Positions 24,139 to 42,949 of a stretch of DNA of 64,000 bases are shown here, piece after piece. Each line of letters begins with the position of its first letter. The first letter of the stretch is position 1. Position numbers and translations under genes: made by a program. Under the pieces are notes generated by a model that had not been told where the DNA came from, did not search any database, and worked only from the letters and a program-made list of their open reading frames with translations. Source of the DNA: Plantactinospora alkalitolerans (lineage in GTDB: Bacteria > Actinomycetota > Actinomycetes > Mycobacteriales > Micromonosporaceae); contig NZ_JADPUN010000148.1 of the NCBI RefSeq assembly GCF_015690345.1, positions 1 through 64,000 of the forward strand, written 5' to 3'.

Positions 24139-27100
24139 CTACGGTCCGATGTGTACGTATGCTGCCCAGCGGGTGGGTATGCCAGGGTAGCGGTGACGCA
24201 ACTGTCGGACGGCATCGTGCAACGCCTGCGCGCTTCGGCCCGCATCGGGTATCCGGCCGATCCCCTCGTAGAAGAGTCGGGCGGTCTCCGTCGCGGTGCC
24301 GTCGGTGACTTGCCACAGCGTGCCGACGACGTGCTGAAAGCCGGTGATATGAAACGCCGTCCCAAGGTGGATCACCTCGGCGGGAACGGCCGGGCTGCTG
24401 AGGACCGTCGCGCAGGCGGACAGGTAGACCAGCTCTCCGTGGGTTGCGCGTTCCGCCAGCAGTTGGCGTATGGACAGGGGCCCGTCGTACAGGTGCAGCG
24501 CACTGTCCGCCGGGGCGTTCGGATAGCTGCTGGCATGGCACGCCACGTGCAACCATCCGCCTGCTCGGAGCCTGGAGCGCACCCGTGCGCACGTCGCCTC
24601 GCCGTCGAGGAGCTGCTGCGCGTGCGGAACGCGTCTGAGGATCCGCTTCACCTCGGCGGTGACACCCGACAGTGAGGGCCGCCCGGGAGCCGCGCGGATC
24701 CCAATCAGTTGCACAGCGGGCGAAGCCGGTTCGGCAGCGCCGTAACGGTTTGCCGCTCGTAGCAGGGAGGTGACCGTCGGAGCGTACGAGGAGACAGCCA
24801 GGTCGAGCACCGACTGACCGGGGGACGTTCCGGCGGCGTGCAGAGGAAGTGCGGCGAGGCTGCCCGTAGGGATCCACCAGATCCGAGAAGGTGGGCTTCC
24901 GTCTCGGCCGAGGTGCGCCAGCACCGGACCGGCCACCGTACTCCACAGCCAAGACAGCACATCCCGCAACGGCTGCTGGGCGTCATGAGTCGCATGCTCA
25001 TTTTCCGCTTGGAGTTCGGCGAAGGGCAGCGCGTTGAGAAAGGCCGCCGCCTGCTCCTGTAAAGCCTCGACGGTCACCTGCGGCAGGGGGACCGCGTCGA
25101 CGCCGTCCCGGGTGAGCACCAGGGCGTGGCTGCCGTACCGGCTGACGTTGACGGTAACCACAGGACCAGCGGCAGCCGCAGGCATCAACTGGTCGATGGT
25201 GACCGGCGCCAGGAAATTCGCGCAGCCCGGCAGGCGGCGGATCCGAACGACGGTCTGATCCCAGGCCCTGACCAGGGCACGTCGGCGGTCAACGTCGCTT
25301 TGTCGGGCGTGCGGCGTGTTCGGATCGGGGCTACCTTCCGAGACAGCTAGCTCGTCGCCGATCCGGCGGAGATCCGCGATGAGCTGCGGAGCCTGCTCCG
25401 GGTCCGCTGCCAGGATCTGGTCGAGGTCCCCGCGTGAGTCGAGGGCCCGCCCGAGGAGCAGGCCACGGCCTCGCTCCAGCAGTTCGAGTGCCTCGTGGGG
25501 CGCGCCAGCCCGCACTGCCACGGCTGCCGCGTCCGAGGCGAGCTCCGACCAGATCGCGGTTTCGCGCAGGTGGTCGTCGGGAGCGAGCGAGCGGCCTACC
25601 AGCCGCGGCAACAGGCTGATGGCCCTTCCGAAAGCCTCGTGAGCGGTCTGCCAGTGGCCGAAGTCAGCGGTGCGGCCGATCAAGCACGCTGCCCGGATGC
25701 GAAATTGAGTGGCCGCGGCCTCGTCATCGACGATTCGCCGGCACTGGTCTACGGCAGCGTCGAGGTCCGCGGGGCGACCGGCCAGGCGGAAACGGTCCTG
25801 CAGCGCAAGACCCAGACAGAGCCGATGCGCCACGCGGTGTCCACGCTGGTGCTCGGGGATTTCGGCAATGATCATGGGCAACTCGGCGATGAGTTCATCC
25901 AGGAGAACAGGTTCGGGTACGGCCATGTGCCTGCCCATAAGGGCGTCGACTAGTCCTTCGCGAAGCTCCATCCGGGCGGTATCGGAGGTCGGGCCGTTGA
26001 TCGCCTGCCTGAGCCGGGTGATCGTCTCGTCCATCTCCTGGACGAGTGCGAGATCAGGTTGACCGTCGGTTCTGCGTTTCGCCGCCAAGACCGAGTAAGG
26101 CCGCTGCAGCACGGCCTTGGATATGCCGATCAGCCTCGAATCCTGCCCGGTATCACGTCTGATAGACAGCTGATAACGTAGGAAGTGAGCCACGGCGCTG
26201 TCTACCGAACTAGCAGTCAGCTCCCCGCGCAAGGTCAGGGCCCTGGCGAGGGTGGAAGCGACGGGTGAGGCAAGGGCAGCGGACACATCGGGCTGCCTGT
26301 CATAGACACCTTGACCACGATCGATGACCTCGTCCAGGTCGCCCCACTGGCGGCTAGCCTCGAAGCGTTGGAGCAGCAATGAGCACAGTCGCGTCGACGC
26401 TGCGTCCTGCTCCTCCCCGGTGCTGCTCGCCCGTAGGGCCGTTCGCATCGCCCACACTGCAGCATCCAGGTCGTCAGCCGTACTCGGCCCACCCGCTTCG
26501 GCCCGCAGGCCCAGCGCGTGCCCGAGCATGGCGAAGAATGCCGGCTGTGGCGTCGGCTCAGCCTCCGCAGCCTCCGCAGCCGCGCTCAGGGCGTCGATCG
26601 CCATATCGAGGTCCGATGCCGAACCACTCGCCAGGTGACGCTGAAGCACCTGGTCGCCGATGTGGTAGAGAACGTTGCGGGCGTGCCCATCCGCCACCTG
26701 CGCAGTGACGAGGACCTGCCGCCAAGCCGTTACTTCCTCAGACAGCGAGACCGAGTCGCCACGCTCACGGATGAGCCGCAGCGTCTCGGCGTGGGCGCGG
26801 GCGCTCTCGCGTTCGACCTCCCCGCCGGCGGGAGCCCTACCCAACGCCCGGCGGAACGACTCGGCCAGCACCTGTAGGCCGAGGTCCCCGCCCAGCGGAG
26901 GCATCTCTAGTCTCAGCAGGGCGGCCGCGCTCTGTAAGGCATACAGAAGGTGGGGGTGGTCGGCGGGCAGCACGTCGAGGGCTTGCGCGCTGACGACCAC
27001 GGCGTCGTGTACGGCCCTCGCGTCGTTCGGCAGCTCAATGCAACGGGCGAAGTGCGCCTGCGCAAGATGTCCCAGTAACGCGAAAAGGTCAGCGCCCTCC

Positions 27101-27414
27101 GGCAGTAGTTCGAGGGCGGCCCTGTACAGGATGATCGCCTGGTCGATGTCCTCGACTCGCGCAGTGCCGTGCTCCAATTGCTGAATGAAGCGGGACTTCA
27201 ACGCGCCTGCGAGTGTCGACCACACCCGGATGGCCACGTCCGGGTAGAGGAGACCACGACGAGCATCGGCTACCGACGCAAGCGCTTCGATGCTGGCGTC
27301 CAACAGCGCCGGTGGGATCTCGTAAGCAGGCTTGCCCAACTGGAATGACACGTTCCGTTCCAGATCTGCGACCTCGGCATTTATCCTCGCGACAGCCTCT
27401 GGCGTCGATCCCAT
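24139..27414 (-). CDS. TPR-CHAT protein (caspase-like protease candidate)
   Basis: About 1091 residues. The first 700 are helical tetratricopeptide-like repeats (ALELLPEGADLFALLGHLAQAHF, ALALQDRF-LAG, ALELLERGRGLLLGRAL). The C-terminal CHAT domain (PF12770, clan CD cysteine peptidase) has both catalytic positions: His at about 960 (LHVACHASS) and Cys at about 1001 (LVYLSACATV), plus GTLWQVTDGTATETA, typical of the domain. CHAT proteins act in conflict, signalling and programmed-death systems by cleaving specific partners. The start ATG at 27414 was chosen because longer in-frame residues add no pattern. It is divergent from a small protein across a 47-bp gap filled by a perfect palindrome. 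Confidence 0.85.
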   Translation of the reverse strand: MGSTPEAVARINAEVADLERNVSFQLGKPAYEIPPALLDASIEALASVADARRGLLYPDVAIRVWSTLAGALKSRFIQQLEHGTARVEDIDQAIILYRAALELLPEGADLFALLGHLAQAHFARCIELPNDARAVHDAVVVSAQALDVLPADHPHLLYALQSAAALLRLEMPPLGGDLGLQVLAESFRRALGRAPAGGEVERESARAHAETLRLIRERGDSVSLSEEVTAWRQVLVTAQVADGHARNVLYHIGDQVLQRHLASGSASDLDMAIDALSAAAEAAEAEPTPQPAFFAMLGHALGLRAEAGGPSTADDLDAAVWAMRTALRASSTGEEQDAASTRLCSLLLQRFEASRQWGDLDEVIDRGQGVYDRQPDVSAALASPVASTLARALTLRGELTASSVDSAVAHFLRYQLSIRRDTGQDSRLIGISKAVLQRPYSVLAAKRRTDGQPDLALVQEMDETITRLRQAINGPTSDTARMELREGLVDALMGRHMAVPEPVLLDELIAELPMIIAEIPEHQRGHRVAHRLCLGLALQDRFRLAGRPADLDAAVDQCRRIVDDEAAATQFRIRAACLIGRTADFGHWQTAHEAFGRAISLLPRLVGRSLAPDDHLRETAIWSELASDAAAVAVRAGAPHEALELLERGRGLLLGRALDSRGDLDQILAADPEQAPQLIADLRRIGDELAVSEGSPDPNTPHARQSDVDRRRALVRAWDQTVVRIRRLPGCANFLAPVTIDQLMPAAAAGPVVTVNVSRYGSHALVLTRDGVDAVPLPQVTVEALQEQAAAFLNALPFAELQAENEHATHDAQQPLRDVLSWLWSTVAGPVLAHLGRDGSPPSRIWWIPTGSLAALPLHAAGTSPGQSVLDLAVSSYAPTVTSLLRAANRYGAAEPASPAVQLIGIRAAPGRPSLSGVTAEVKRILRRVPHAQQLLDGEATCARVRSRLRAGGWLHVACHASSYPNAPADSALHLYDGPLSIRQLLAERATHGELVYLSACATVLSSPAVPAEVIHLGTAFHITGFQHVVGTLWQVTDGTATETARLFYEGIGRIPDAGRSAQALHDAVRQLRHRYPGIPTRWAAYVHIGP

Positions 27415-27420
27415 ACGGCG

Positions 27421-27454
27421 AGTCTGGCAGGACCGCCATCGGTCCTGCCAGACT
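27421..27454. promoter_or_regulatory. perfect 14-bp palindrome in the CHAT divergent promoter gap
   Basis: AGTCTGGCAGGACC (27421-27434), loop GCCATC, then its exact complement (27441-27454). It fills most of the 47 bp between the start codons at 27414 and 27462, so both transcripts would begin with the same sequence. It may be an operator for a repressor or an RNA hairpin; which is not decidable from sequence. Confidence 0.7.
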
Positions 27455-27461
27455 GAAGCAT

Positions 27462-27902
27462 ATGAACATCGATCGCCTGCCAGCAGACGGCGTCTATCCC
27501 CGCCCGGGGAGCGGTGCACAACGAGGCGGAGGCGACCTGTTCCTCGCTGTGCTCGCCGGATCGGCGCTCGCGCCCTTCGTCCAAGCTGTCGCCACCAGGG
27601 CCGGAGAGGATGTCTACGCGAAGATTCGTGGCCTCCTCACCCGCCAACGCGCCGACTCGACTCGCGAGCCACAGTCGGTCGCGGCACCGATCGTTCTCGC
27701 GGACCCAGGGGCAAGGATCATCCTCCGGTTTCCGGTGACGCTGTCGACGTCGGACGCCGGTGCGCTAGCCGGCGTGCGACTACCGAAGACCGACGGTCAG
27801 GCATGGCTCCTGGTGGAGCACCTCGCAGAGGGCTCGACCTGGACCGTGCGGCAGGTTCACCAACCTCCAGCCGGGGCGATTGTCCTTCGGGGTGAACCGT
27901 GA
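27462..27902 (+). CDS. small hypothetical protein divergent from the CHAT gene (EACC1-like effector partner candidate)
   Basis: 146 residues. A Gly-rich turn then a hydrophobic helix (GGGDLFLAVLAGSALAPFVQAVATRA, near residues 23-48 overall) precede a beta-rich region ending in WLLVEHLAEGSTWTVRQVHQPP. The pattern, position and size resemble the small effector-associated components (EACC1-type) found next to CHAT proteases in actinomycete conflict systems. This family link is tentative: no single motif proves it. There is no ribosome binding site before the ATG at 27462. Confidence 0.4.
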   Translation: MNIDRLPADGVYPRPGSGAQRGGGDLFLAVLAGSALAPFVQAVATRAGEDVYAKIRGLLTRQRADSTREPQSVAAPIVLADPGARIILRFPVTLSTSDAGALAGVRLPKTDGQAWLLVEHLAEGSTWTVRQVHQPPAGAIVLRGEP

Positions 27903-27941: not shown

Positions 27942-30842
27942 TCACGCCCTCGCCAGGGGTGAGCGGGTCAGCCGAGCCTGGACCTCGGCCGCTCGCGGGT
28001 GGTCCAGTTCGGTGAGGATGGCCAGCGACCGCGACCAGTCGGCCCGAGCCGCTCTCAGGTCACCGGCCATCTCGCGGGTGTCGCCGAGCCGGGTCAGTGA
28101 CACCGCTTCGCCGAGACGGTCGCCCACCTTCTGGAACAACAGGATGGCCTGCTGGAAGCAGCGGACGGCCGGTCGGTACCGGCCCAGGCCGTGGTTGGCC
28201 CGGCCGATGCTGTCCCAGGTGTCCGCCGCGGCCCGGTGGTCGCCGATCAGTTGGTGTTGCCGCAGCGCCCGGGCGCAGTACGTCAGCGCGGCCGGGTGGT
28301 CACCGAGGAGGCTGTGGCACCAGCCGATCGCGTTCAGCGCGTTGGCCCGGCCCGGACGGTAGCCCACGGCGCGGTACAGCACGAGCGCGCGCTTCGCGTG
28401 TGCCAGCGCGTCCCGGTACCGGCCCTGCCGCTCGCACGAGTCGGCGAGGCTCATCTCCGTGTTCGCCCGGCCCGCGTCGTCGCCGAGTTCCTCGTACCAG
28501 CGGAGTACCTGCTGCAACTCCCGCCGGGCGTCGTCGTGCAGTCCGAGACGCAGGTACGCACGGGCGAGTTCACGCCGGGCCCGGGCCTCCAGTAGCCGGT
28601 CCCCGAGCCGCCCGGCCGCTGACAGCGCGGTCCGCTGTACCGTCGCCTGGTCGTGCCGGTAAGCCCGCCGGTCGAAGTACGAGCACAGGTACCAGGCCAG
28701 CTCGCAGACCTCCCGATCGAGTCCGGCCGTGGCCGCCTGGTCGATCAGGGCGAGCAGCACCGGGTGTTCGGTGGAGAACCATCCGAACGCCGCCTCGGCA
28801 TCGCCCGGCTGTTCGGCACCGGCCCGCTGTGCTGCCGGAACGTCGTCGAGCGCGGCAGGGAGCCGCGCCGGAACGGATCCCGCGTGCCGGTACGGTGAGA
28901 TCAGCCGGTCCGCGATCGCGGCCACGTCCAGGTAGTGGTCGAGAATCCGCCGCAGCACGGCCCGGCGTACCCGCTCCGGTTCGACCGTCCGGGCGAGTTC
29001 GGCGGCGTAGGCGCGCAGCAGATCGTGACAGCCGAACCGTACGGGCCGGTGCTCGACCAGCAGATGGGCCCGAGCCAGCTGCGCCAGCAGTGGACGGACC
29101 CGGTCCAGCGGCAGGCCGACCAGAGCTGCCGCCGCGTTGGCCGAGAGTTCCGGGCCGGGATGCAGACCGATCAGCCGGAACAGCGTCGCCGCCTCGGTGG
29201 AGAGCAGCCGGTACGACCAGGAGAACACGGTCCGGACGTCGAACGCCGCCTCGTCGTCGGACAACACCGCCAGGTCGCCGGAGCCCTCCCGCAATTCCCC
29301 GACCAGCGCATTGAGCGGGAACGCCGGCTGGGTACTGGCCCGGGCGGCCACAATGGCCAACGCCAGCGGCAGCCGGGCACAGGTGGCGATGATCTGGCCG
29401 ACCGCGTCGGGTTCCGCCGCGACCCGCTCCGGACCGATCCGGTCGACCAGCATCTGCCGGGCATCGACATCGGTCATCAGGCCCAGACTGAGTGGACGGG
29501 CGCCGGAGGCCACCAGACCGGACAGCTCGTTCCGACTGGTGACGATGACGAGGCAGTCGGCCGAGCCGGGCAGCAGCGGACGGACCTGATCGGCCCGGCG
29601 GGCGTTGTCGAGCAGGATCAGTACCCGTCGCCGGGCGAGCAGACTGCGGTAGAGGCCGATCTGCGCGGTCGGACTGACCGGGACGCGTTCCGGCGCGACC
29701 CCGAACGCGTCGAGGAACTCGCGTACCACCTCGTCCGGCCGGACCGGGTCGGCACTGGCGTCGAAGCCCGCGAGGTCGGCGTAGAGCTGCCCGTCGGGAA
29801 ACCGCTCGGCGATCTGGTGTCCCCAGTGCACGGCCAGCGTCGTCTTGCCCACGCCGGCCGTCCCGGTCAGGGCGACCACCGTCGGCCCGCCCTCCTTCTC
29901 CGCCGTGATCAGCTCGTCGAGCCACCGCAACTGCGCGACCCGCCCGGTGAAGGCTGCCGTGTCGGGCGGAAGCTGGGCCGGGACCACCACCGGAGGCATC
30001 GCCGCCGACGCGGACCCGCCGACCGCGTTCGGCGACCGCTCGACCGGCCCGCAGGGCACACCGGCGGACGAGTCCGATTCGAGCAACTCCTGGTGGGCGT
30101 CGGCGAGCACCGCACCCGGATCCGCGCCCAACTCGGCAACCAGGCGCTTCCGCGCGGTGTCGAAGACCGCGAAGGCGTCCGACCGGCGGCCCAGGGCGAT
30201 GTAGCACCGCATCAGGTGGGCCTGGGCCTGTTCGTCCAGCGGCCGGGCCTCGGCCCACTCGCGCACCACGCCGAGCACCTCCTCGGCCCGGCCCAGCCTG
30301 ATCGCGGCGTCAACCCGCCAGGAGAACGCGAACTGCGCCTCCGCGATCAGGGGCGCCGTCCGGGGATGCCCGGCGAGCACCGGTACGTCGGCCAGCGGCG
30401 GCTGCCACAACCGCAGCGCCTCCCCGGCCAGCTCCCAGACCCGCGCCTGGTCGGCGCGGGCGCGCGCCGTGCGGGCCTCGGCCACCAGTCGCCTGAACTG
30501 GAGCACGTCGATGGCGATCGGGTCCACCACCAGCCGGTATCCGGTGCCCACCGACGGCAGCAGTTGGCTCGCCATCCGCAGCGGACGGCCCGGTTCCAGC
30601 ACCCGGCGCAGGTACTTCACGTGGGTGTGGATAACGTTCGCACCGCTGCGCGGCGCGCCGGTCGGCCAGAGCGCGTCGACCAACTCGTCCCGGCCGACGG
30701 GTTGACCCTCGGCCGGCGCGAGGAGACCCAGTACCGCCCGCCGCTGCGGTGGACCGACCGGCAGTTCCACCGTGCCCCGCCACAGGCGTACCCGGCCCAG
30801 CAGACAGAGCCGCAGCTTTTCCGACCCGTCGTCCAGTTCCAA
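27942..30842 (-). CDS. AfsR-type SARP/NB-ARC/TPR regulator of the cysteine-rich peptide cluster
   Basis: 966 residues. The winged-helix DNA-binding part is at 10-100 (RLCLLGRVRLWRG, HTHVKYLRRVLEPG), BTAD at about 105-255, NB-ARC from about 300 with Walker A GTAGVGKTT (327-335), ILLDNARRADQVRPLLPG and TSRNELSG, and C-terminal TPRs (ALNAIGWCHSLLGDHPAALTYC). It is divergent from the small Cys-rich gene across 131 bp, which is the typical position for a cluster-situated activator. Regulation of that cluster is inferred; SARP boxes are not certain in the gap. Confidence 0.9.
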   Translation of the reverse strand: MELDDGSEKLRLCLLGRVRLWRGTVELPVGPPQRRAVLGLLAPAEGQPVGRDELVDALWPTGAPRSGANVIHTHVKYLRRVLEPGRPLRMASQLLPSVGTGYRLVVDPIAIDVLQFRRLVAEARTARARADQARVWELAGEALRLWQPPLADVPVLAGHPRTAPLIAEAQFAFSWRVDAAIRLGRAEEVLGVVREWAEARPLDEQAQAHLMRCYIALGRRSDAFAVFDTARKRLVAELGADPGAVLADAHQELLESDSSAGVPCGPVERSPNAVGGSASAAMPPVVVPAQLPPDTAAFTGRVAQLRWLDELITAEKEGGPTVVALTGTAGVGKTTLAVHWGHQIAERFPDGQLYADLAGFDASADPVRPDEVVREFLDAFGVAPERVPVSPTAQIGLYRSLLARRRVLILLDNARRADQVRPLLPGSADCLVIVTSRNELSGLVASGARPLSLGLMTDVDARQMLVDRIGPERVAAEPDAVGQIIATCARLPLALAIVAARASTQPAFPLNALVGELREGSGDLAVLSDDEAAFDVRTVFSWSYRLLSTEAATLFRLIGLHPGPELSANAAAALVGLPLDRVRPLLAQLARAHLLVEHRPVRFGCHDLLRAYAAELARTVEPERVRRAVLRRILDHYLDVAAIADRLISPYRHAGSVPARLPAALDDVPAAQRAGAEQPGDAEAAFGWFSTEHPVLLALIDQAATAGLDREVCELAWYLCSYFDRRAYRHDQATVQRTALSAAGRLGDRLLEARARRELARAYLRLGLHDDARRELQQVLRWYEELGDDAGRANTEMSLADSCERQGRYRDALAHAKRALVLYRAVGYRPGRANALNAIGWCHSLLGDHPAALTYCARALRQHQLIGDHRAAADTWDSIGRANHGLGRYRPAVRCFQQAILLFQKVGDRLGEAVSLTRLGDTREMAGDLRAARADWSRSLAILTELDHPRAAEVQARLTRSPLARA

Positions 30843-30973
30843 CGTGACTCCCCGGTGCCGTAACGGCCAGTAGCGGAGTAATGGCGTTGCGGTCGTCCAT
30901 TGTGCATCCAGTCAATAACCAGTGCGGAGATCCACGATGGCACAGCTGAGTCGATCGAGAGGAGGTGAACCAA
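30843..30973. promoter_or_regulatory. shared promoter region of SARP and cysteine-rich peptide genes
   Basis: 131 bp between divergent starts. The end carries a strong GGAGG site (30961-30965) for the peptide ATG at 30974. The left part has short repeats of TAC/TTAC-type words at irregular spacing (30852-30890), a possible SARP site, but no clean heptamer direct repeat is present. Confidence 0.3.
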
Positions 30974-31168
30974 ATGTTGCGAGTCATGAACGAACTGGGT
31001 GACCGGATGCTTGCCGCCTTCGTCCCACGGGCAACCGCCGCAGCCGCTGACTGCGGTAGCGCCCACTGGAAGAACATCTGCAAGGACAACGTCTGGCAGT
31101 TCTGCCGCTGCTGGAGCAACAGCAACTGCAAGTGTGACGCCTGCGACCCATCGACCCATCGTTGCTGA
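30974..31168 (+). CDS. small 8-cysteine peptide, candidate precursor of a secreted disulfide-rich or modified peptide
   Basis: 64 residues starting at the ATG, 8 bp after GGAGG (an in-frame GTG at 30965 overlaps that site and is less likely). Residues 1-26 form an amphipathic, non-Sec-like leader (LGDRMLAAFVPRATAAAA) whose end has an AxA pattern suiting signal peptidase. Residues 27-64 hold all eight Cys (27, 36, 44, 46, 52, 54, 57, 64) with three Trp, ending in C. It lies at the head of redoxin, ABC-exporter and signal-peptidase genes. I interpret it as a ribosomally made peptide matured by oxidation, cleavage and export. No family I know matches, so the product class is inferred. Confidence 0.65.
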   Translation: MLRVMNELGDRMLAAFVPRATAAAADCGSAHWKNICKDNVWQFCRCWSNSNCKCDACDPSTHRC

Positions 31169-31308
31169 ACAACGAGCAGTAGAACGGTCCCGGATATCCG
31201 GACGGTCAGCAGGTCCCAGTGATCGACCGAGCCGTAGACGAACTGCGGCGGCAACGGGGGCCGTGGCAGCGGGACAACCAACCACGCGCGCTGGCGTGGG
31301 AATCGACC

Positions 31309-31355
31309 ACGAGGTCCGGCGGCGAGTTGCCCCCCAGCCCGCCGCCGGACCTCGT
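31309..31355 (+). terminator. attenuator-like stem-loop after the peptide gene
   Basis: A perfect 15-bp inverted repeat (ACGAGGTCCGGCGGC and complement, loop 17 nt) lies 140 bp after the peptide stop and 51 bp before the redoxin start. As it sits inside the presumed operon, partial termination would give excess peptide mRNA over the maturation genes, as in many precursor-peptide clusters. The role is inferred. Confidence 0.6.
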
Positions 31356-31406
31356 TCTCCCCGCCGGCCACGCGGATCGGCCCGGGTCCACGAACAAGGA
31401 GCATTC

Positions 31407-31946
31407 ATGCCATATCTTGTCGCCGCCGTGGTCCTGGCAAGCGCGCTGGGCACGCTGAACCTGCTGCTCACCCTGGCCGTCATCCGTCGGCTGCGGGAGC
31501 ACACCGAACTGTTGGCCGGGCTCGCGACCGGTGCTGGCAGCGGAATCATCGAGGCTGGGCAGACGCCCGGCGACTTCGCGGTCACCGACACCGACGGCAG
31601 CGTCGTACGCCGGGAGAACCTCGGCGGTGACGTCTTGGTCGCCTTCTTCTCCCCGGACTGCCCCGCATGCACGGACGCGTTGCCACGGTTCGTGACGCAG
31701 GCGGCCGGGTTTCCCGGCGGGCGTGTCCAGGTGCTCGGGGTGGTGACCGGCGACGGGCCGGGGGTAACCGGACTCGCGGATCGGCTGAACGGCGTGGCGC
31801 GGGTGGTCGTCGACGGCATCGACGGCAAACTCGCCACGGCCTTCCAGGCACGCGCCTTCCCTTCCTGGTGCCTGCTGGACGCGACCGGCACCGTCGCGCG
31901 CAGCGGCAGCGGTTGGACCGAGCTTCCGGTCCCCGTCCCCGCATGA
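31407..31946 (+). CDS. membrane-anchored thioredoxin-like protein (TlpA/MauD-type) with CPAC motif
   Basis: 179 residues. One N-terminal transmembrane helix (residues 2-25) anchors an extracytoplasmic thioredoxin fold. The redox motif C85-P-A-C88 lies in VAFFSPDCPACTDALP, as in TlpA/MauD-type proteins that make or isomerise disulfides in secreted partners. The ABC exporter starts inside its stop codon (ATGA overlap), so the two are translationally coupled. With the eight-cysteine peptide upstream, a role in its cysteine oxidation or shuffling is the natural inference. Confidence 0.8.
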   Translation: MPYLVAAVVLASALGTLNLLLTLAVIRRLREHTELLAGLATGAGSGIIEAGQTPGDFAVTDTDGSVVRRENLGGDVLVAFFSPDCPACTDALPRFVTQAAGFPGGRVQVLGVVTGDGPGVTGLADRLNGVARVVVDGIDGKLATAFQARAFPSWCLLDATGTVARSGSGWTELPVPVPA

Positions 31947-33781
31947 CCTCGGGAGGCACCCGGCCGAAGGTGGACTTCCGGTTGGTGACCGCCGCCGTCC
32001 GCCTGGCCTACCGGGCCGCGCCGGGAGCGGCCGTGGCGCAGGCACTGATCGCGATCGGCGGTGGCCTGCTCCCGGTCCTGGTAGGTGTGCTCACCAAGAT
32101 GGTGGTGGACCGGCTTGCCGGTTTGGACGGCGGCCCGGTAACGACGGTGATCGGCCTCGCGGTCGGGCTCGGCGTTGCCGGCGTTGCCGTGGCCACCCTG
32201 CCGCATCTGTTCGGATACGTGGATGCCGAGTGGCGCCGGGCGGTCGCGGTGCGGGCACAGGCGGACCTCTACGCGGCGGTCGACCGCTTACCCGGCCTCG
32301 TCCGCCTGGAAGACCCGGCCTTCCGCGACCATCTGAACGTGGCTGACTCTGCCGGCCGGCACAGCCCGGTCACCATCGCCGGTAGCAGCCTGGAACTGCT
32401 GCGCTCCATCGTGACAATCGCCGGCTTCGCTGGCACTCTGGCCCTGCTCAACCCGTGGATGGTCGGCGTTCTCGCGCTGGCCGCCCTCCCCACCGCCCAA
32501 GCCGAGCTGAGACTCGCCCGGCAGCGGGCCGGCCTGTTCTGGCGACTCAGCCCGATCGAGCGGCGCCAGTACTTCTACGCCAATCTGCTCACCGGCCTCG
32601 CCGCTGCCAAGGAGATCCGGCTGTTCGATCTCGGCGGCCTGTTCGGGCAACGGATGATCAAGGAACTCCGCACGCTCAATGCCGAGAACCGCAGGATGGA
32701 CCGCCGAGAGGTTCTCGTGCAGGCCGGGCTCGCGGTGGTCGGTGCGGTCGTCGCCGGCGCCGGTCTGATCTGGGCAATCGTCGCCGCCCGCGGCGGCCGG
32801 TTGAGCATCGGCGACGTGACGATCTTCGTCGCTGCCCTGGCCGGCATACAGGGAGCGGTCGCCAGCGGGATCGGCCAGGTGGCCACCGCACACGAGGGCC
32901 TGCTGCGGTTCACCCACTACCGGGAGGTGCTGGGCACCGCCCCGGACCTGCCCCTGCCCGCCGAGCCGGTGCCGGTGCCGCCGTTGCGCGGCGGCATCGA
33001 ACTGCGCGACGTCTGGTTCCGGTACGGGGACGGGCACCCGTGGGTGCTGCGCGGCGTCGACCTGACCATTCCGCCGGGGCGGACGGTGGCCCTCGTCGGG
33101 CTGAACGGCGCCGGCAAGAGCACTCTGGTCAAGCTGTTGGCACGGTTCTACGACCCCACCCGGGGCAGCCTGAGCTGGGACGGCGTCGACTACCGCGAGC
33201 TGGACGTCGTCCAACTTCGGAACCGGATCGGAGCGGCGTTCCAGGATTACATGTCCTACGATCTGTCCGCCGAGGAGAACATCGGCCTCGGCGACACCAC
33301 GGCATTCGGCGACACCGGACGGATCGTCACCGCGGCAGAACGGGCCGGCGTGCACGACGTACTGACCGCGCTTCCGCACGGGTACGCCACCCAGCTGAGC
33401 AGGACGTTCGCCGACCCGGACGACCGGGATGACGAGAGCAGCGGAGTACTGCTTTCCGGCGGGCAGTGGCAGCGCCTCGCGCTGGCCCGATCCTTCCTGC
33501 GGGCCGGCCGGGACCTGTTGATCCTGGACGAGCCGAGCGCCGGTCTGGACGCGGAGGCAGAGGCGGACCTGCACCAGCGGCTGCGCGGGCTCCGGGAGGG
33601 CCGGACCACCCTGCTGATCTCACATCGGCTGGGTACGGTCCGGGACGCCGACCACATCGTCGTGCTGCGCGACGGGGTGATCGCCGAGCAGGGCAGCCAC
33701 GACGAGCTGCTGACGAACCAGGGCGCGTACGCCCGGTTGTTCAACCTCCAGGCTGCCGGTTACCAGCCGGTGCCCGGCTGA
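31943..33781 (+). CDS. ABC exporter half-transporter (fused permease-ATPase), without peptidase domain
   Basis: 612 residues. A six-helix permease region (residues about 10-320) precedes the ATPase: Walker A GLNGAGKST (386-394), Q-loop in AFQDYMSYDL, signature LSGGQWQR (504-511), Walker B LLILDE (525-530) and H-loop ISHR. There is no N-terminal C39 peptidase, so this transporter exports but does not cleave; a separate signal-peptidase gene follows. It overlaps the redoxin stop by ATGA. A homodimer is likely. The substrate is probably the Cys-rich peptide. Confidence 0.85.
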   Translation: MTSGGTRPKVDFRLVTAAVRLAYRAAPGAAVAQALIAIGGGLLPVLVGVLTKMVVDRLAGLDGGPVTTVIGLAVGLGVAGVAVATLPHLFGYVDAEWRRAVAVRAQADLYAAVDRLPGLVRLEDPAFRDHLNVADSAGRHSPVTIAGSSLELLRSIVTIAGFAGTLALLNPWMVGVLALAALPTAQAELRLARQRAGLFWRLSPIERRQYFYANLLTGLAAAKEIRLFDLGGLFGQRMIKELRTLNAENRRMDRREVLVQAGLAVVGAVVAGAGLIWAIVAARGGRLSIGDVTIFVAALAGIQGAVASGIGQVATAHEGLLRFTHYREVLGTAPDLPLPAEPVPVPPLRGGIELRDVWFRYGDGHPWVLRGVDLTIPPGRTVALVGLNGAGKSTLVKLLARFYDPTRGSLSWDGVDYRELDVVQLRNRIGAAFQDYMSYDLSAEENIGLGDTTAFGDTGRIVTAAERAGVHDVLTALPHGYATQLSRTFADPDDRDDESSGVLLSGGQWQRLALARSFLRAGRDLLILDEPSAGLDAEAEADLHQRLRGLREGRTTLLISHRLGTVRDADHIVVLRDGVIAEQGSHDELLTNQGAYARLFNLQAAGYQPVPG

Positions 33782-33795
33782 ACGGCACGGCACCC

Positions 33796-34290
33796 ATGAT
33801 CTACGTCGTGCTCGCCGGGGCGGTCGGGGCCGCCCTGGCCGGTCTCGTCACCCGGTTCCGGCGCAGGTGGGTCCTGGTCACCGTGCACGGTCGGTCCATG
33901 GTGCCGACGCTCGAACCGGGCGACCGCGTTCTGGTCCGCCGCGTCCCGCCCGGTGCGGTGCGGATCGGTCAGGTGGTCGTCGTCGAGGAACCCGTCGGTG
34001 GCGCCTGGCACACGTGGCCGCTGGTCGGCGGTGTCGCACCCGGGCCCGAACGTCGGTGGATCGTGAAGCGGGCCGTTGCCGGTCCCGGTGATCCGGTGCC
34101 GGCGACGGTCGTGCCGGCCGCCGGCTCCGCTCTGTCCCGGGTTCCGCCAGGAAGGTTCGTGCTGCTCGGTGACAACCAACCCGAGAGCTGCGACTCGCGG
34201 AACTTCGGCCTGGTCCCCGGTGACCGGCTCCTCGGAGCGGTACGCCGGGTCTTCCGCCCGGCCGGCCGACGCGCCACCAGCGTGAGGTGA
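33796..34290 (+). CDS. S26-type signal peptidase I-like protease
   Basis: 164 residues. An N-terminal transmembrane helix (3-19) precedes box B GRSMVPTLEPGD (Ser34 nucleophile), box D WIVKRAVAGPGD (Lys91 general base) and box E GDNQPESCDSRNFG (125-138). The serine/lysine dyad is complete. It starts 14 bp after the ABC exporter, in the same direction. A dedicated signal peptidase suits removal of a peptide leader at an AxA site outside the membrane. It is shorter than housekeeping SPase I, as expected for a specialised enzyme. Confidence 0.82.
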   Translation: MIYVVLAGAVGAALAGLVTRFRRRWVLVTVHGRSMVPTLEPGDRVLVRRVPPGAVRIGQVVVVEEPVGGAWHTWPLVGGVAPGPERRWIVKRAVAGPGDPVPATVVPAAGSALSRVPPGRFVLLGDNQPESCDSRNFGLVPGDRLLGAVRRVFRPAGRRATSVR

Positions 34291-34806
34291 CCGGACAGCG
34301 CGGGGAGATTCGGGCTGGTTCCCGATGACGTCCGCTGGCCCGTCGGCGGCCGTCCGGCCTTGACGGATGGTCGCCGGCAGACCGACCGACTCCTACCTGC
34401 CGGTGGACCGGACGGACGGACCACGGTCGACGTCACCACTACCGCCCCGGAGGTAGTTCTCCGCCCGGCTACGTCGCGGGCGGCAGCGGCAACTGTCCTC
34501 CCCGGCCCGACGACTCACGGCCGTCCCGGGCGGCATCGTGACCGGGTACATGCGGGCACGTGGTCGGCGCTCGTCGAGGGCACCGGCCGGCGCCGTCCGC
34601 GGCCGGCGGTCCTCCGGAGGGGTCGGGACAGATCCTTCCGGGACCGGCTCGCCGCCGGAGCGTCCGCCCACCGGGAACGACGTAGGAGACGCGATGCGCA
34701 GATGTGAGGGCACGGATCAGGTCGATCGTCAGGTCCGCGACGGCAGAGCGCGCCGGGGACGGCACGACCTCCCGCCCGTGCCGCGGGCCACCCGCCGGGT
34801 CGCGGC
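34291..34806. other. intergenic stretch before the MMPL gene, no gene seen
   Basis: 516 bp. Open frames on both strands are Arg/Pro-rich and unrecognised. The size allows a separate promoter for the MMPL gene, so its membership of the peptide operon is uncertain. Confidence 0.4.
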
Positions 34807-36960
34807 ATGATCCGCCTCTCGCGTTTCGTGCTGCGGCACAGACTCGCGGTGACCCTGTCGTGGCTCGTACTCTTCCTCGCCGGTGCGGTGGCCGCCAGCC
34901 AGTTGTCGGATCAACTGACCCGCGACTTCTCGTTCCCGAGTACGGCCGCCGACGAGGCCAACGGAGCGATCCTGGCCACGTACGGCAACGGCGCCGGGAC
35001 GTACCCGCTGGTGCCCGTGGTCGTCCTGCCCGACGGGACCGGCGCCGACGCTCCCGCGCTCCGGCAGGCCTTCGACGCGGCGGCGGTACGCCCGCAACTG
35101 CGGGTGGTGTCGTACCCCTCGACCGGCGACCGCCGCTTCGTCGGCGCCGACGGACGTACCGTGTTCGGGCTTGTCTTCCTGCCGCCCGCGACCGGCGGGC
35201 CGGCACCCGACTACGGGGCGGAGATCACCCAGGCGATGTCCCGGGTGCTGCCGGCAGGCGCGACGGTGCACGTCACCGGGCTCGGCGAGCTGGCCACGGC
35301 GGACGACACCGGCTCGGGCAGCAGCGTGCTGACCGAGACCCTGATCGGCGCGCTCGGCGCCCTGGTCGTGCTGGCGTTCGTCTTCAGCTCGCTGCTGGCC
35401 CTGGTGCCACTGCTGGTGGCCGCCGTGTCGATCCTCACCACGTTCCTCATCGTGCTCGGGCTGACCGCCTTCTCCGACGTCAGCTTCATCGTGCAGTTCC
35501 TCGTCGCGCTGGTCGGCCTCGGCGTCGCCATCGACTACTCGCTGCTGCTGGTCACCCGGTGGCGGGAGGAACGTGCCCATGGCCATCCCGGCGACGAGGC
35601 GGTCCACCGGGCGATGGCCACCGCCGGACAGGCCGTGCTGTTCAGCGGCGTCACCGTGGCCATCGGGCTGGTCGCGCTGGTGGTGCTGCCCGTGCCGTTT
35701 CTGCGCAGCGTCGGTTACGGCGGCATGCTCGTCCCCCTGGTCAGCGTGCTGGTCACCCTGACCCTGCTGCCGGTGCTGCTGGCCACCGTCGGACGCCGGG
35801 TCGACTGGCCCCGACTACGCCGGGAGGAGACCGCCAGCCGCGCCTGGCGGGCCTGGGCCGGCGGCGTGGTCCGGTTCCGCTGGCTGGCCGCCACCGTCGG
35901 CGTGCTGATCCTCGGCGCCCTCGCCGTCTCGGCGACCGGCCTCAAGCTCGGCGATGCCGACTCCGAGGCGCTGGCCCGCTCGGCCAGACCGGACGCGGCG
36001 GCCGGACTGGCCGACCTGACCCGGGCCGGGATCCCCACCGGTGTGCTGACCCCGATCGAGGTGCTGATTCCGGCCGGCACGGCACCCCCGACCGGGCTGG
36101 ACGCACTGCCCGGCAGCTACGCGGCCGTGGTGCCTCCGGACGCCGGCTGGCAGCGGGGTGGGACGCGGCTGCTGGTCGTGCTTCCGCGCGACGAGGCGAG
36201 CAGCGACGGCGGCAAGAGCACGATCACCCGGGTACGCGACACGCTGACGGGCGTCCCCGGAGCCCGGGTGGGCGGGTTCGGCGTGCTGGAGAAGGACGCC
36301 CAACAGGCCCTCTACGGGCCGTTCCCCGTCCTGCTGGCCGTCATCGGACTGATCACCTTCATCCTGCTCGCCCGGGCGTTCCGTTCGCTGCTCCTGGCGC
36401 TCAAGGCGGTGCTGCTCAACCTCCTGTCCCTGGCCGCCAGCTACGGCGTGCTGGTCCTCGTCTGGCAGCACGGCTACGGATCGGAGGTCGTCTGGGACAT
36501 CCCGGCGACCGGTGCCATCACCTTCTGGGTGCCGCTGATGTGCTTCGCCTTCCTCTACGGACTGTCGATGGACTACGAGGTGTTCATCCTCGCCCGGATC
36601 CGCGAGGAGTACGACCGCACCGGCGACACCCGTACCGCGATCGTCGAGGGCATCGGCCGGACCGGCCGACTGGTCACCAGTGCCGGCCTGATCCTCTTCC
36701 TCGCCTTCCTGTCGCTGTCCACCGCGCCGAGTACCGAGATCAAGATTCTGGCCACCGGACTGGGCGCGGGAATCCTGCTCGACGCGACGGTGGTGCGCTG
36801 TCTGCTGGTCCCGGCCACGGTGTCGCTGTTCGGTCGCGGGAACTGGTGGCTGCCCAACTGGGCCGCCCGGCTGCTGTTCCTCCCCGTGCCGACGTCCGAT
36901 CTCCCGGCCGACAGCCCGGCCGACGCTCCCGAGCGCACGCCGTTCACCACGGTCGGCTGA
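34807..36960 (+). CDS. MMPL/RND-family exporter
   Basis: 717 residues, about 11-12 transmembrane helices arranged as TM1, an outside loop (about 35-175), five helices, then the repeat. The paired family motifs are present: GLGVAIDYSLLLVTRWREE (D243-Y244) and FLYGLSMDYEVFILARIREE near residue 584. The family moves lipids, siderophores or secondary metabolites with the proton gradient. It follows the peptide cluster on the same strand after 516 bp, so a role in product export or resistance is possible but unproven. A strong terminator follows. Confidence 0.88.
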   Translation: MIRLSRFVLRHRLAVTLSWLVLFLAGAVAASQLSDQLTRDFSFPSTAADEANGAILATYGNGAGTYPLVPVVVLPDGTGADAPALRQAFDAAAVRPQLRVVSYPSTGDRRFVGADGRTVFGLVFLPPATGGPAPDYGAEITQAMSRVLPAGATVHVTGLGELATADDTGSGSSVLTETLIGALGALVVLAFVFSSLLALVPLLVAAVSILTTFLIVLGLTAFSDVSFIVQFLVALVGLGVAIDYSLLLVTRWREERAHGHPGDEAVHRAMATAGQAVLFSGVTVAIGLVALVVLPVPFLRSVGYGGMLVPLVSVLVTLTLLPVLLATVGRRVDWPRLRREETASRAWRAWAGGVVRFRWLAATVGVLILGALAVSATGLKLGDADSEALARSARPDAAAGLADLTRAGIPTGVLTPIEVLIPAGTAPPTGLDALPGSYAAVVPPDAGWQRGGTRLLVVLPRDEASSDGGKSTITRVRDTLTGVPGARVGGFGVLEKDAQQALYGPFPVLLAVIGLITFILLARAFRSLLLALKAVLLNLLSLAASYGVLVLVWQHGYGSEVVWDIPATGAITFWVPLMCFAFLYGLSMDYEVFILARIREEYDRTGDTRTAIVEGIGRTGRLVTSAGLILFLAFLSLSTAPSTEIKILATGLGAGILLDATVVRCLLVPATVSLFGRGNWWLPNWAARLLFLPVPTSDLPADSPADAPERTPFTTVG

Positions 36961-38800: not shown

Positions 38801-41800
38801 CTACGACTCCTTGGACCTGCCTGAAACGGGCATGTCTCGACCTTGCGATAGCCCCGCTGAGGCCCTGGCCAGTAGGGACAGGGCGCGCTCCTCGCCAGGA
38901 AGATGCCCGGTGCGTCGGTGACTGTTGCGCGCGCGTGTCGCGTACGCCCTAGCCTCCCCGTGTTGGCCGTCGGACAGGTGAGCTTCGGCGAGGGCGGTCA
39001 AGGCCAGTCCCTTCAGGATGGCGTATCGGTATCGGTCGGCTAGCGCCAGGGCTTCGGAAGCGTGTCTGTTCGCTACGGCGGAATGTCCAAGTCGCCCGAA
39101 ACTCGTGGCCAGTCCCAGCTTGGCCACGATCCTCGGATGGGCCCTCATGGCGGGCCGGAACGACAGCGCACGTTCGTAACAGCGAATCGCTTGTTTCTCG
39201 TCGTCCCCTGCCGCACTGATCGCGCCCATCAGGATGAAGAATTCGCCGTCGTTGCAGCTTCCCTTCAGGTGTAGGAACAAGGTTTCTATCTCCGTCGCCA
39301 GTTCGGATGCTGTCTCAAGGTCACCCGCTGCCAGGTGAATGGTGGCGATTCCGATCAGAGCGTTCAGTTCTTGTCGCAGGTTGCCGCGATCGTGTGAGAT
39401 GGTCAGTGACTCTGACAGCAGGGTCAAGGCTCTTTGGCGCTGGCCGAGGTCGTGGTAGGTGTTTCCGAGGGATTCGAGTGCAACGGCCCATGCAACTCCT
39501 GTTTGTGCGCTTTCGTCGATCAGGCTCAGCGCTCTGGTCAGTGCCTCCACGGACTCCTCGAGGCGCCCCATGAATCGATAACCGATACCCAAGTTGATAA
39601 GAGACGTCGACTGGTCCAGTGTCCGCCCTTGCCGCTGCCAGTGTTTCGCGACTAGTAGGTGGAGCCTCGTCGCGACCTCCGTCTGTCCGAAATCCGCATA
39701 AATTATTCCGAGATTTGTGATGGCACCCAGGTGGCGGGCCGACCAGGCAGTACGAGAGCTGATCTTCATTGCTTGGGTGGTGTGTTCGATGGCGGCTCGG
39801 AAGTGGCCGAGAACGTATGAGACCTGCCCTAGGCTGGTGTGCATCGCCGCCGTGGCGACCGGATTCTCCGAATCCTTGGCGGCCGCCAACCCCAATTGCG
39901 ACACCTTCAGCCAGCTGGTAAGGTCGGCCCGTTGCCAAAGATAGCCGCGGAGACCGTCGGCCAGCAGCCACACTATCGCCGATCTGCCGTGGTCCGCGGC
40001 GAATTGAATGATCGAGCGGAGATTACTCCACTCATCGTCCAGCCACGCCAGAGCCTCGGATCTACTCCGGAGGACAAGCGAAGGAGTGATGCTGGTGCCC
40101 GTCGGCTCGGCTAGGCGGAGTAGCTGAGGATAGAGTATCTGGGCAGCGAGAACCACGCCGTGCACGTACCAGTTGAACAAATTGTCGAGGGCTTCGGTGT
40201 CGCCGGGCTCAGCCAGTGAGGTGCTGCGTTCGCGTGCGTAGTGACGGAGCAGGTCGTGGAATGTATAGCGACTCGGCGCGGACTCCTCGACCAGATGGGC
40301 TGCCGCGAGCTGATCCAGCATGTGGACCGCATGAGCTTGCGTCGTGCCATAGAGCGCGGCGGCGGCATCCGTCGTGAAGGTCTGGCCGGGGATCAGGCCG
40401 AGTAGCCGGAAGAGTCGCTGCGATTCGCGTGGAATCGCAGCGTAGGACAGGTCGAAGGCGATCCTGACCGCAGAGCCCGCATCATCCGCGACACCCAGGG
40501 TTGCGATGCGATCGGACCCCTGCAGCAGGTCGACGTAGTCGGCGATGGTCCGGCAACGGCGGTCTGCGAGATGTGCCGCCGCGATGCGCAGCGCGAGCGG
40601 AAGGTGAGCGCAGATACTGGCAAGCTGGTCGGCGACATCGAGTTCCGCCAGCACCCGCTCTTCGTTGAGCACGTGACTGAGTAGCCGACGGGATTCATAC
40701 GGCGTGAGGACGTCCAGTGAGACGCGATGTGCCCCCTCGCGCGCCACCAGCCCGGTGAGCCGGTCGCGGCTGGTGACGAGGACGAGGCAACCAGTACTGC
40801 CGGGTATCAGCGGACGCAGTTGCTCCGCCGAGCGGGCGTTGTCCAAGAGAATCAACATTCGTCGGCCAGCCAGGAGCGATCGATACATCGCAGCTGCTCG
40901 GTCAGTGTCCGCCGGCATCGCGTCCGGGCGAACTCCCAGCGAACGAAGGAAAGCACCGAGCACCTCGACCGGTTGCATCGAGGGTTTAGCGGAGTATCCA
41001 TGCAGATCGACGTAAAGTTGTCCGTCGGGGAAGTGGTCCACGACCCTACGTCCCCAATGAGTTGCGAGCGCTGTCTTACCTACACCAGCGGTGCCGACAA
41101 TCGCTACGATGGAGACTGCTGAACCAGCGACGAAACTGCTCGGCAGAATTCTGTCCAGTTCCGCTAGTGTGGCTGAGCGACCAATGAAACAACTCGAGAC
41201 GGCTGGTAACTCTTGAGGCGGTGAAGAGGTGAAGTTGAGTCCCGGGCCGGTCCCTTGGACGAATGGTGGAACTGGCGGAACCCCGGCCGTCTGCGGACGG
41301 GCCACCTCTTGGCGAAGCACGCGCTGGTGCAACTCGATAAGCTCTGGGCCAGGGTCGATGCCTAGATCATCTGCTAACCTGCTCCGGATTTTTTCATAGG
41401 TGGCCAATGCCTCGGCTTGGTGGCCACTCCCGGCCAATGCGGCGATCAGGCGCAGGTGCACGGGTTCGTGCAGGGTGTTGCCCGCGGACAAGGCCCGCAA
41501 CCACGGCAAGGCACGCTGGTGAGAGTTCTGAGCCGCACAGATTTCAGCGAGCAGCAGGGCTGCCGTGATTTTCTCGTCGTTCAGTTGAGACACCAACGGA
41601 TGACCACGGAGACACGGTATGTCAGAAAGTGGGTCGTCCCGCCATAGTTCAAGAGCGGTCTCGATCAGGGCCAGTGCCTGTGCCGGGTCGGCAGATTTCG
41701 CGGAATCCTTGACGAGCTGTCGGAACTGCCCGACGTCGAATTGGCTGGGAGTTCCGGTTAACTTGTATCCACCGGGCATCAGCATGAGGATCTGCGACTG

Positions 41801-42322
41801 CTCCCGTGGGGGTCGCAGTGGCTCGAGGGCTCGGCGGGCGCGTGTTACGTAGGCTTGCAGGAGTCGGACGGCTGCGGGCGGTGGGTCATCTCCCCAAAGG
41901 AGGTCGATAAGTTGAGCGCGCGGGACGGTGCGGTCCGGGCTCAGCGCGAGCCGGCCTACCACGGTCCGCGCCCCTGCAGATTGAAGGCGGACAGGGGCTG
42001 CGCCCCTCTTTATGACGAGCGGACCCAGCACCTCGATCCTGATCGGCGCTTCTGGGACCGTTACCGATTCAGGCTCCACGGATCTGGAGTCGGGGGTTAT
42101 CTTTGGCGTCGACCGAGCGCACTCTTGGAAAATCGCCGCCTGCTGACCGGTGAGGCGCAGTGCTTCGATGAGTGCTCGAAGCGACCTGGGATGCGGCTGT
42201 CGGGTGCGTCGTTGTTCTAAATCACGAATAGTGGCTAAATTGAGCCCGGCTATGTTGCTAAGTTCCTGCTGGCTCAAGTTCGCGATGTGGCGTTGTCGCC
42301 GCAGTGCGTCGGCGAAGTCCAT
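38801..42322 (-). CDS. HTH-SARP-NB-ARC-TPR giant regulator
   Basis: 1173 residues. An XRE helix-turn-helix (residues 1-60: DFADALRRQRH, LSQQELSNIAGLNLATIRDLEQRR) comes first, then a SARP winged helix (about 95-190), BTAD (about 195-340), NB-ARC with Walker A GTAGVGKTA (410-418), ILLDNARSAEQLRPLIPG and TSRDRLTG, then about 450 residues of TPRs. The fusion of an XRE domain to a SARP is seen in actinomycetes. Start at the ATG at 42322 because the HTH begins there; the open frame continues upstream to 42409. Which genes it controls is unknown; the PrsW gene follows. Confidence 0.88.
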   Translation of the reverse strand: MDFADALRRQRHIANLSQQELSNIAGLNLATIRDLEQRRTRQPHPRSLRALIEALRLTGQQAAIFQECARSTPKITPDSRSVEPESVTVPEAPIRIEVLGPLVIKRGAAPVRLQSAGARTVVGRLALSPDRTVPRAQLIDLLWGDDPPPAAVRLLQAYVTRARRALEPLRPPREQSQILMLMPGGYKLTGTPSQFDVGQFRQLVKDSAKSADPAQALALIETALELWRDDPLSDIPCLRGHPLVSQLNDEKITAALLLAEICAAQNSHQRALPWLRALSAGNTLHEPVHLRLIAALAGSGHQAEALATYEKIRSRLADDLGIDPGPELIELHQRVLRQEVARPQTAGVPPVPPFVQGTGPGLNFTSSPPQELPAVSSCFIGRSATLAELDRILPSSFVAGSAVSIVAIVGTAGVGKTALATHWGRRVVDHFPDGQLYVDLHGYSAKPSMQPVEVLGAFLRSLGVRPDAMPADTDRAAAMYRSLLAGRRMLILLDNARSAEQLRPLIPGSTGCLVLVTSRDRLTGLVAREGAHRVSLDVLTPYESRRLLSHVLNEERVLAELDVADQLASICAHLPLALRIAAAHLADRRCRTIADYVDLLQGSDRIATLGVADDAGSAVRIAFDLSYAAIPRESQRLFRLLGLIPGQTFTTDAAAALYGTTQAHAVHMLDQLAAAHLVEESAPSRYTFHDLLRHYARERSTSLAEPGDTEALDNLFNWYVHGVVLAAQILYPQLLRLAEPTGTSITPSLVLRSRSEALAWLDDEWSNLRSIIQFAADHGRSAIVWLLADGLRGYLWQRADLTSWLKVSQLGLAAAKDSENPVATAAMHTSLGQVSYVLGHFRAAIEHTTQAMKISSRTAWSARHLGAITNLGIIYADFGQTEVATRLHLLVAKHWQRQGRTLDQSTSLINLGIGYRFMGRLEESVEALTRALSLIDESAQTGVAWAVALESLGNTYHDLGQRQRALTLLSESLTISHDRGNLRQELNALIGIATIHLAAGDLETASELATEIETLFLHLKGSCNDGEFFILMGAISAAGDDEKQAIRCYERALSFRPAMRAHPRIVAKLGLATSFGRLGHSAVANRHASEALALADRYRYAILKGLALTALAEAHLSDGQHGEARAYATRARNSHRRTGHLPGEERALSLLARASAGLSQGRDMPVSGRSKES

Positions 42323-42949
42323 GAGTGATCCCCGTAAACGCTCTTTTGCTCTTCGACGTCCCGACCCAGGATAGCTCTGTTTGAAATTTCCATGATCCCT
42401 TCGCGTCAAACATGATCCAAAACCGTCTTACATGGACAGTTTTCTCAATCCGGGCGGCTTGGTGTCGGGTGGCGCTGGGCCGGCCGAGGTGGGGCACAAA
42501 CCCACCTCGGTTGATCGATGCGGGTCACCCACTCGGCACCCGGGCGCGTTTTGAACGGCACAGGGAGAACCGCCCGCATTGCGTCCGCGATGTCACGCTA
42601 CGTGAAGACGCTCATCAGGCCGGCACCGGCAACGGCCCCGCCGTCATGGCCACGCCGCATAACACGGCGATCGGATAACACCGCGGCAACGGCGAACCAA
42701 CCTCGCCGGAGCCACCCGATGCGCCGATCGTCGACCGCGCGACCTCATTCGAAACCGTAACCATAAGAAGTTCGACCGTGACAAGCGGTAATTCTCTCAG
42801 GCAATAGCCCTGCTTCCGTACCTGGCCCGTCTGGCCCGTCAAAGCGGCGAGTCACCGGCCGGCCAGGCGATCTCCGGTATGGGTTTCCTACGGGCGCTGC
42901 GGCGGTGCTGCGACGTGTGCGGAGCGCGGCACCCTGTATCGGCCGCTCA
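42323..42949. other. intergenic stretch upstream of the giant regulator
   Basis: About 630 bp. It holds the regulator's promoter and an isolated stem-loop at 42484-42510. I see no recognisable gene; frames on both strands are pattern-free. Confidence 0.4.
42484..42510. terminator. isolated terminator-like stem-loop
   Basis: A perfect 10-bp inverted repeat (CCGAGGTGGG and complement, 7-nt loop) with no intact gene ending next to it. It may be left from a lost gene or act on the upstream end of the regulator's leader. Confidence 0.4.

Follow-up and report, generated by a model that had tools for sequence, protein, structure and literature searches.

A cysteine-rich peptide locus of Plantactinospora alkalitolerans as a likely member of a large family of exported disulfide-rich peptides

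A 64,000-nucleotide stretch of the Plantactinospora alkalitolerans genome (contig NZ_JADPUN010000148.1, positions 1 to 64,000; hereafter the window) carries a gene for a small cysteine-rich peptide, followed on the same strand by genes for a membrane-anchored thioredoxin-like protein (redoxin), an ATP-binding cassette (ABC) exporter and a signal-peptidase-I-like protein of family S26. Does this arrangement constitute a pathway for maturation and export of the peptide, and what kind of product would it release? The initial annotation had proposed an undescribed cluster in which these genes, together with a divergent SARP/NB-ARC regulator and an MMPL exporter, supply oxidation, export and cleavage for one small peptide. 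All six genes lie where it had placed them, as judged from open reading frames (ORFs) and Pfam/NCBIfam matches (Table 1), and its description of a 64-residue, eight-cysteine peptide followed by a CPAC redoxin, an ABC exporter without a peptidase domain and an S26 enzyme, with the SARP/NB-ARC gene divergent, is correct. Very probably, the locus belongs to a large family of secreted, disulfide-rich peptides that is hypervariable and has a maturation line of its own. At the level of sequence, the family is marked by a conserved leader, a hypervariable core with an even number of cysteines and a two-way linkage to redoxin, ABC and S26 genes, often joined by MauE and a SARP regulator.

Conserved leader and hypervariable cysteine-rich core

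The precursor (MLRVMNELGDRMLAAFVPRATAAAADCGSAHWKNICKDNVWQFCRCWSNSNCKCDACDPSTHRC) carries all eight cysteines downstream of its leader. A search across 301 genomes from the bacterial family to which the strain belongs returned relatives at E-values of 2e-25 and 1e-13, with many others near 1e-5, and nearly every homologue is preceded by a purine-rich Shine-Dalgarno sequence of its own. In an alignment of 25 members, R11, P18, A22 and A24 are invariant and the cysteine-rich core is variable. The leader follows the consensus L-G-D-R-[LM]-L-x3-V-P-x3-A-x-A, and the cores, 29 to 73 residues long, are hypervariable. The profile derived from this alignment retrieved 73 precursors in 60 loci, and the P...A-x-A pattern is present in 86 of 93 precursors. 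Such a constant leader and hypervariable core within one ribosomal ORF correspond to the precursor layout of ribosomally synthesized and post-translationally modified peptides (RiPPs). Comparison with the closest orthologue, from Micromonospora zingiberis, gave a ratio of nonsynonymous to synonymous substitution rates (dN/dS) of about 0.17 for the leader and about 0.44 for the core, indicating a precursor under constraint whose core evolves faster than its leader. Pfam, NCBIfam and the Protein Data Bank (PDB) hold no recognised family for the peptide or the aligned family, and the same searches do not identify the peptide with any cytosolic protein already described. The precursors also match none of the class II bacteriocin precursor families.

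Of 82 non-redundant cores, 79 contain an even number of cysteines (binomial p ~2e-20 against one half), as expected from full disulfide pairing. A hidden Markov model (HMM) built from the leaders alone, and thus unable to select for cysteine, retrieved, in named genomes, 33 ORFs close to redoxins, all with 4, 6, 8 or 10 cysteines and none with an odd number; cysteine makes up 17.8% of these matches versus 2.2% of the background. The same model found 46 ORFs in a multi-precursor genome, again without a single odd count, and a third set was even in 17 of 19 cases, while no match was obtained among 9273 small ORFs of random loci. The AlphaFold2 model of the window peptide, of moderate confidence, shows a disordered leader and a three-stranded core (pLDDT ~73-84), for which no PDB structure matched better than E 1.2. 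Cysteine parity and the linked oxidoreductases described below suggest that the core is modified post-translationally by disulfides.

With 18% cysteine, the cores could also be taken for metal-binding peptides, similar to metallothioneins or chalkophores. This explanation is very unlikely, since Tyr (9.1%) and Trp (3.7%) are abundant in the cores, the even cysteine number is accompanied by an oxidoreductase partner, no metal-related family recurs among the neighbours and the match to MymT reaches E = 9.9 only.

Loci L183, L205, L089 and L090 each contain three or four related precursors in tandem, which suggests local duplication followed by divergence. Precursors of L107 (genome G083) and L137 are devoid of an A-x-A site (e.g. 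APRSVGPQAC) and possibly represent a leader subclass; those of L107 have no machinery adjoining them.

Two-way linkage of precursors with redoxin, exporter and S26 genes

Linkage was assessed in both directions. Among the 60 loci, chosen by the peptide alone, 51 contain the redoxin, 51 the ABC exporter, 48 the S26 gene and 47 all three; 38 carry MauE, and in 30 a SARP-type regulator lies no more than 6 kb away. Conversely, the leader peptide is present in 19 of 20 loci chosen by the redoxin alone, in all 29 redoxin-chosen loci of named genomes and in 7/7 plasmid loci, versus none of 20 random 20-kb stretches. These sets overlap slightly, since L215 (M. zingiberis) and G107:C11 are apparently one contig. 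In the window genome, six of the seven redoxin relatives adjoin a precursor and the seventh lies on a short contig. Elsewhere, a 7.8-kb contig (L120, G000:C243) carries an S26-MauE-redoxin-ABC module with no recognisable precursor.

The peptide and its neighbours are thus conserved together across actinomycete genomes, an outcome that the initial annotation had named as support for its proposal, and its set for oxidation, non-C39 export and S26 cleavage of a cysteine-rich peptide is upheld as far as linkage is concerned, the biochemistry being predicted from sequence. Its MMPL component has to be removed: a comparison at 1e-8 with every ORF in the 60 related loci gave no homologue, and we rejected this gene as a second exporter.

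The leader ends in A-x-A and not in a double glycine, and A-x-A corresponds to the -3/-1 rule of signal peptidase I. The precursors could therefore be ordinary Sec-secreted small proteins processed by the housekeeping signal peptidase, with the ABC, redoxin and S26 genes as incidental neighbours; indeed, the AFA site of cinnamycin is thought to be cut in this manner (PMC2843593). The two-way linkage and the presence of a dedicated S26 gene in most modules make such a scheme highly improbable, as do the leaders themselves, which carry a conserved D/E-R midway, have a longest apolar run of at most seven residues, mostly three to six, and so lack a typical Sec h-region.

We found no lanthipeptide, sactipeptide or azole RiPP enzyme families among the genes of the system or its recurring neighbours, which agrees with the earlier statement that lanthionine, radical-SAM and cyclodehydratase enzymes are missing. 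The known genes and their antisense frames aside, no additional enzyme family is recurrent within 7 kb of the precursors in the 60 loci; generic neighbours, namely response regulators, kinases, LysR and MFS proteins, recur in 5-7 loci each. The cores do contain Ser (8.7%) and Thr (7.1%), and orphan precursors show that maturation in trans is possible, so a lanthipeptide or another thioether RiPP could be modified by an enzyme encoded elsewhere. Nevertheless, the lack of a recurring enzyme family, together with an even cysteine count and conserved oxidoreductases that fit disulfides, leaves this explanation little credit.

The redoxin has one N-terminal transmembrane helix and a CPAC motif, and both cysteines of its CxxC are invariant in 26 aligned relatives. 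Its AlphaFold2 model (pLDDT 86) combines a helix at residues 2-42 with a thioredoxin fold, the nearest folds being ResA, TlpA-like proteins and SdbA. In locus L097, a redoxin with its second active-site cysteine replaced (RPDCGPTRESLP) is encoded at 10768-11319, and a second redoxin-like gene lies directly upstream of the precursor. The MauE proteins of related loci are genuine members of PF07291, a family for which a role in disulfide formation has been speculated in the main text of the decRiPPter study (PMC7794033). Since the redoxin also matches the MauD family, albeit weakly (19 bits, cut-off 189), the locus could be a relative of methylamine dehydrogenase maturation, with the peptide as a MauA-like cofactor subunit. 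However, PF02975 was not matched by any of 25 precursors, nor was the profile by any PDB chain; the cores are hypervariable in sequence and span 29 to 73 residues, and no additional mau genes are reported for the Streptomyces hosts of the decRiPPter study (PMC7794033). A relationship with MauA was therefore rejected, and we give this origin next to no weight.

The redoxin and exporter genes share 4 nt (ATGA) at the redoxin stop, and no Pfam match to Peptidase_C39 was obtained for the exporter. The S26 protein matches Peptidase_S26 at 66.5 bits and carries the GRSM serine and the VKR lysine; the catalytic Ser (GxSM) and Lys (KR) are kept in the family consensus. With these motifs, the linked S26 protein is a predicted leader peptidase.

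Table 1. Features of the peptide locus and its surroundings (positions in the window)
Feature	Position	Strand	Basis or remark
Ribosome-binding site AGGAGG of precursor gene	30960..30965	+	read from sequence; 8 nt upstream of ATG
Precursor peptide gene, 64 aa, 8 Cys	30974..31168	+	ORF, family relatives, alignment, core/leader dN/dS
Leader, residues 1-24, ending P18-R-A-T-A22-A-A24	30974..31045	+	cleavage predicted after A24 (alternatively A25)
Core, residues 25-64, 40 aa, four predicted disulfides	31046..31165	+	Cys parity; AlphaFold2
Hairpin between precursor and redoxin genes, GC-rich, main stem of 16 bp	31309..31355	+	z = -6.0
Membrane-anchored thioredoxin-like protein (redoxin), CPAC	31407..31946	+	Pfam AhpC-TSA/Redoxin
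ABC exporter, ABCB-type half transporter, 612 aa	31943..33781	+	matches Pfam ABC_tran but not Peptidase_C39
S26 signal-peptidase-I-like protein, predicted leader peptidase	33796..34290	+	Pfam Peptidase_S26, TIGR02227 over cut-off
SARP/NB-ARC/TPR regulator, AfsR-like, divergent	27942..30842	-	BTAD + NB-ARC + TPR matches
MMPL transporter, judged outside the system	34807..36960	+	no homologue in 60 related loci

Proposed maturation route and comparison with known systems

From this linkage we infer that the ABC exporter carries the precursor and that the S26 enzyme cuts it. The reduced precursor would be recognised through its leader (LGDRMLxxxVP) by the exporter, which would move the whole precursor out in place of Sec. 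The S26 enzyme would then cut after A-x-A outside the membrane, and the redoxin, held oxidised by MauE (in the window strain probably acting in trans), would form the disulfides. The product in the window strain is predicted to be a peptide of 39-40 residues with four disulfides, and not of the roughly 38 residues initially expected; with all four disulfides formed, its calculated monoisotopic mass is 4582.78 Da for cleavage after A24 and 4511.75 Da for cleavage after A25. In genomes with many orphan precursors, one exporter would serve all of them in trans.

Several observations weigh against this reading. A few members of the wider redoxin family have lost the second cysteine, and about 7% of precursors show no clear P...AxA. 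Nine of the 60 loci have no linked redoxin and nine no linked ABC gene, which could be explained by machinery acting in trans. MauE is absent from the window, hence its omission from the initial annotation, and is a common extra component elsewhere; the SARP regulator is present in just half of the loci. Finally, no immunity gene recurs near the precursors of the 60 loci, which weakens a bacteriocin reading.

Parts of the route have precedents. In 2020, decRiPPter listed MauE-linked precursors with at least eight cysteines as candidates in three Streptomyces hosts (PMC7794033). As in the present family, MauE, and once MauD, stands beside such precursors, and a role in disulfide formation was proposed; the main text gives predictions only, with no leader motif, S26 enzyme, in-trans arsenal, wider families or experiment (PMC7794033). 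The MauE-linked precursors of that study likely belong to the same family as the present peptides. Since this list is the only prior mention and no experimental description of the system was found in the open-access literature, the designation "undescribed" is mostly, though not entirely, right.

Pediocin-like class IIa systems (PedA/PedC/PedD) share with the present family a small leader peptide, a dedicated ABC transporter and a thioredoxin-fold CxxC disulfide helper (PMC4919988). In these systems the leader is removed by the ABC transporter (PMC4919988), whereas a separate S26 enzyme acting at AxA is predicted here; the pediocin operon is devoid of MauE, and the present family of a recurring immunity gene, C39 domain and double glycine. 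The Mau system likewise ties a MauE-family membrane protein and a membrane redoxin to a disulfide-rich exported product, but the present peptides have no MauA homology, another leader type and ABC export. C39 peptidase-containing ABC transporters (PCATs) couple ABC export to leader removal and handle constant leaders with diverse cores (PMC10885120), unlike the present exporter in having a C39 domain; neither signal peptidase nor S26 is mentioned in a 2023 review of RiPP leader proteases (PMC10885120). For cinnamycin-type lanthipeptides, an AFA/AYA leader site has been proposed for type I signal peptidase (PMC2843593, PMC12837462). There the general secretory peptidase is assumed, whereas here an S26 gene is linked and lanthionine enzymes are absent. 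Prochlorosin-type RiPPs also have dozens of precursors with a conserved leader and one enzyme set, built around a lanthionine synthetase instead of disulfides and export. The scheme thus proposes that an ABC exporter works with a separate S26 enzyme as leader peptidase, and that MauE serves a purpose outside methylamine metabolism.

Distribution, possible role and regulation

At E 0.01, at least 30 of 395 genomes match class-wide and, at 1e-4, at least 2 of 396 phylum-wide, the window genome included; both counts are lower bounds, with 15 first-look candidates scored per genome. Named carriers of the module belong to Micromonospora, Virgisporangium, Nonomuraea, Planomonospora, Sphaerisporangium, Actinomadura, Amycolatopsis, Kibdelosporangium and Streptomyces. 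A tblastn search of plasmids with the peptide gave no match; with the redoxin as query, 27 plasmids were found. Plasmids of Streptomyces clavuligerus and S. atratus carry peptide-MauE-redoxin-ABC-S26 in one direction, and their records list the peptides as hypothetical proteins alongside annotated MauE/DoxX, ABC and S26.

The window's own genome has nine precursors. In genome G007, the profile gave 54 matches, of which 47 were verified as distinct precursors; they are spread over 37 stretches and almost always lack adjoining machinery. This genome encodes two redoxins and only a single clear orthologue of the exporter (48% identity and 573 bits, against 195 bits for the runner-up). The exporter pattern is repeated in G083 and G004, where the profile matched 26 and 14 precursors, respectively. 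Since dozens of precursors coexist with one orthologous exporter, maturation probably occurs in trans, with a single set serving many precursors. The initial annotation had assigned the set to one small peptide. On balance, we favour the view that mycelial actinomycetes possess a dedicated non-Sec pathway of secretion and oxidative folding (ABC, separate S26, redoxin/MauE) for a venom-like arsenal of hypervariable disulfide miniproteins, up to about 50 per genome, acted upon in trans by one exporter. The best-known antibiotic producers would thus hold a very large, barely annotated pool of gene-encoded disulfide-rich peptides, with a simple leader rule for finding them and a compact gene set predicted to make and export them.

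What these peptides do is a more evenly balanced matter. An antagonistic or inhibitory action of the mature miniproteins outside the cell is suggested because the cores are hypervariable, aromatic and slightly cationic (mean net charge +1.4), numerous per genome, carried on plasmids and under SARP control; it has about an even chance of being correct. As no immunity gene recurs, signalling or surface roles are also possible. The same machinery could indeed deliver developmental or envelope peptides, such as signals or hyphal surface proteins, in line with SARP control, with an occurrence only in large-genome actinomycete families and with purifying selection on one 10-Cys type in several genomes of a single genus. 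We hold this alternative to be plausible but less probable, since extreme core diversity, up to ~50 precursors per genome and plasmid carriage suit an arsenal better.

Concerning expression, a z below -2 was found in the 90 nt downstream of 51% of 107 precursors, compared with 7% of controls, and Rfam gave no match in the locus region. The hairpin between the precursor and redoxin genes is possibly an attenuator or a terminator; it may let more precursor than enzyme be made, or may simply terminate transcription. The divergent SARP/NB-ARC/TPR protein is probably an activator.

The SARP gene is adjoined by a gene for a 1126-aa CHAT-domain protein (24139-27519, - strand), for which PADLOC gave no match; CHAT proteases are frequently effectors or signalling proteases. 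Two more NB-ARC/TPR regulators are encoded in the window, at 8351-10681 (+) and 38801-42409 (-), the latter with HTH and BTAD domains, which, with the SARP protein, makes three STAND-type regulators in ~35 kb.
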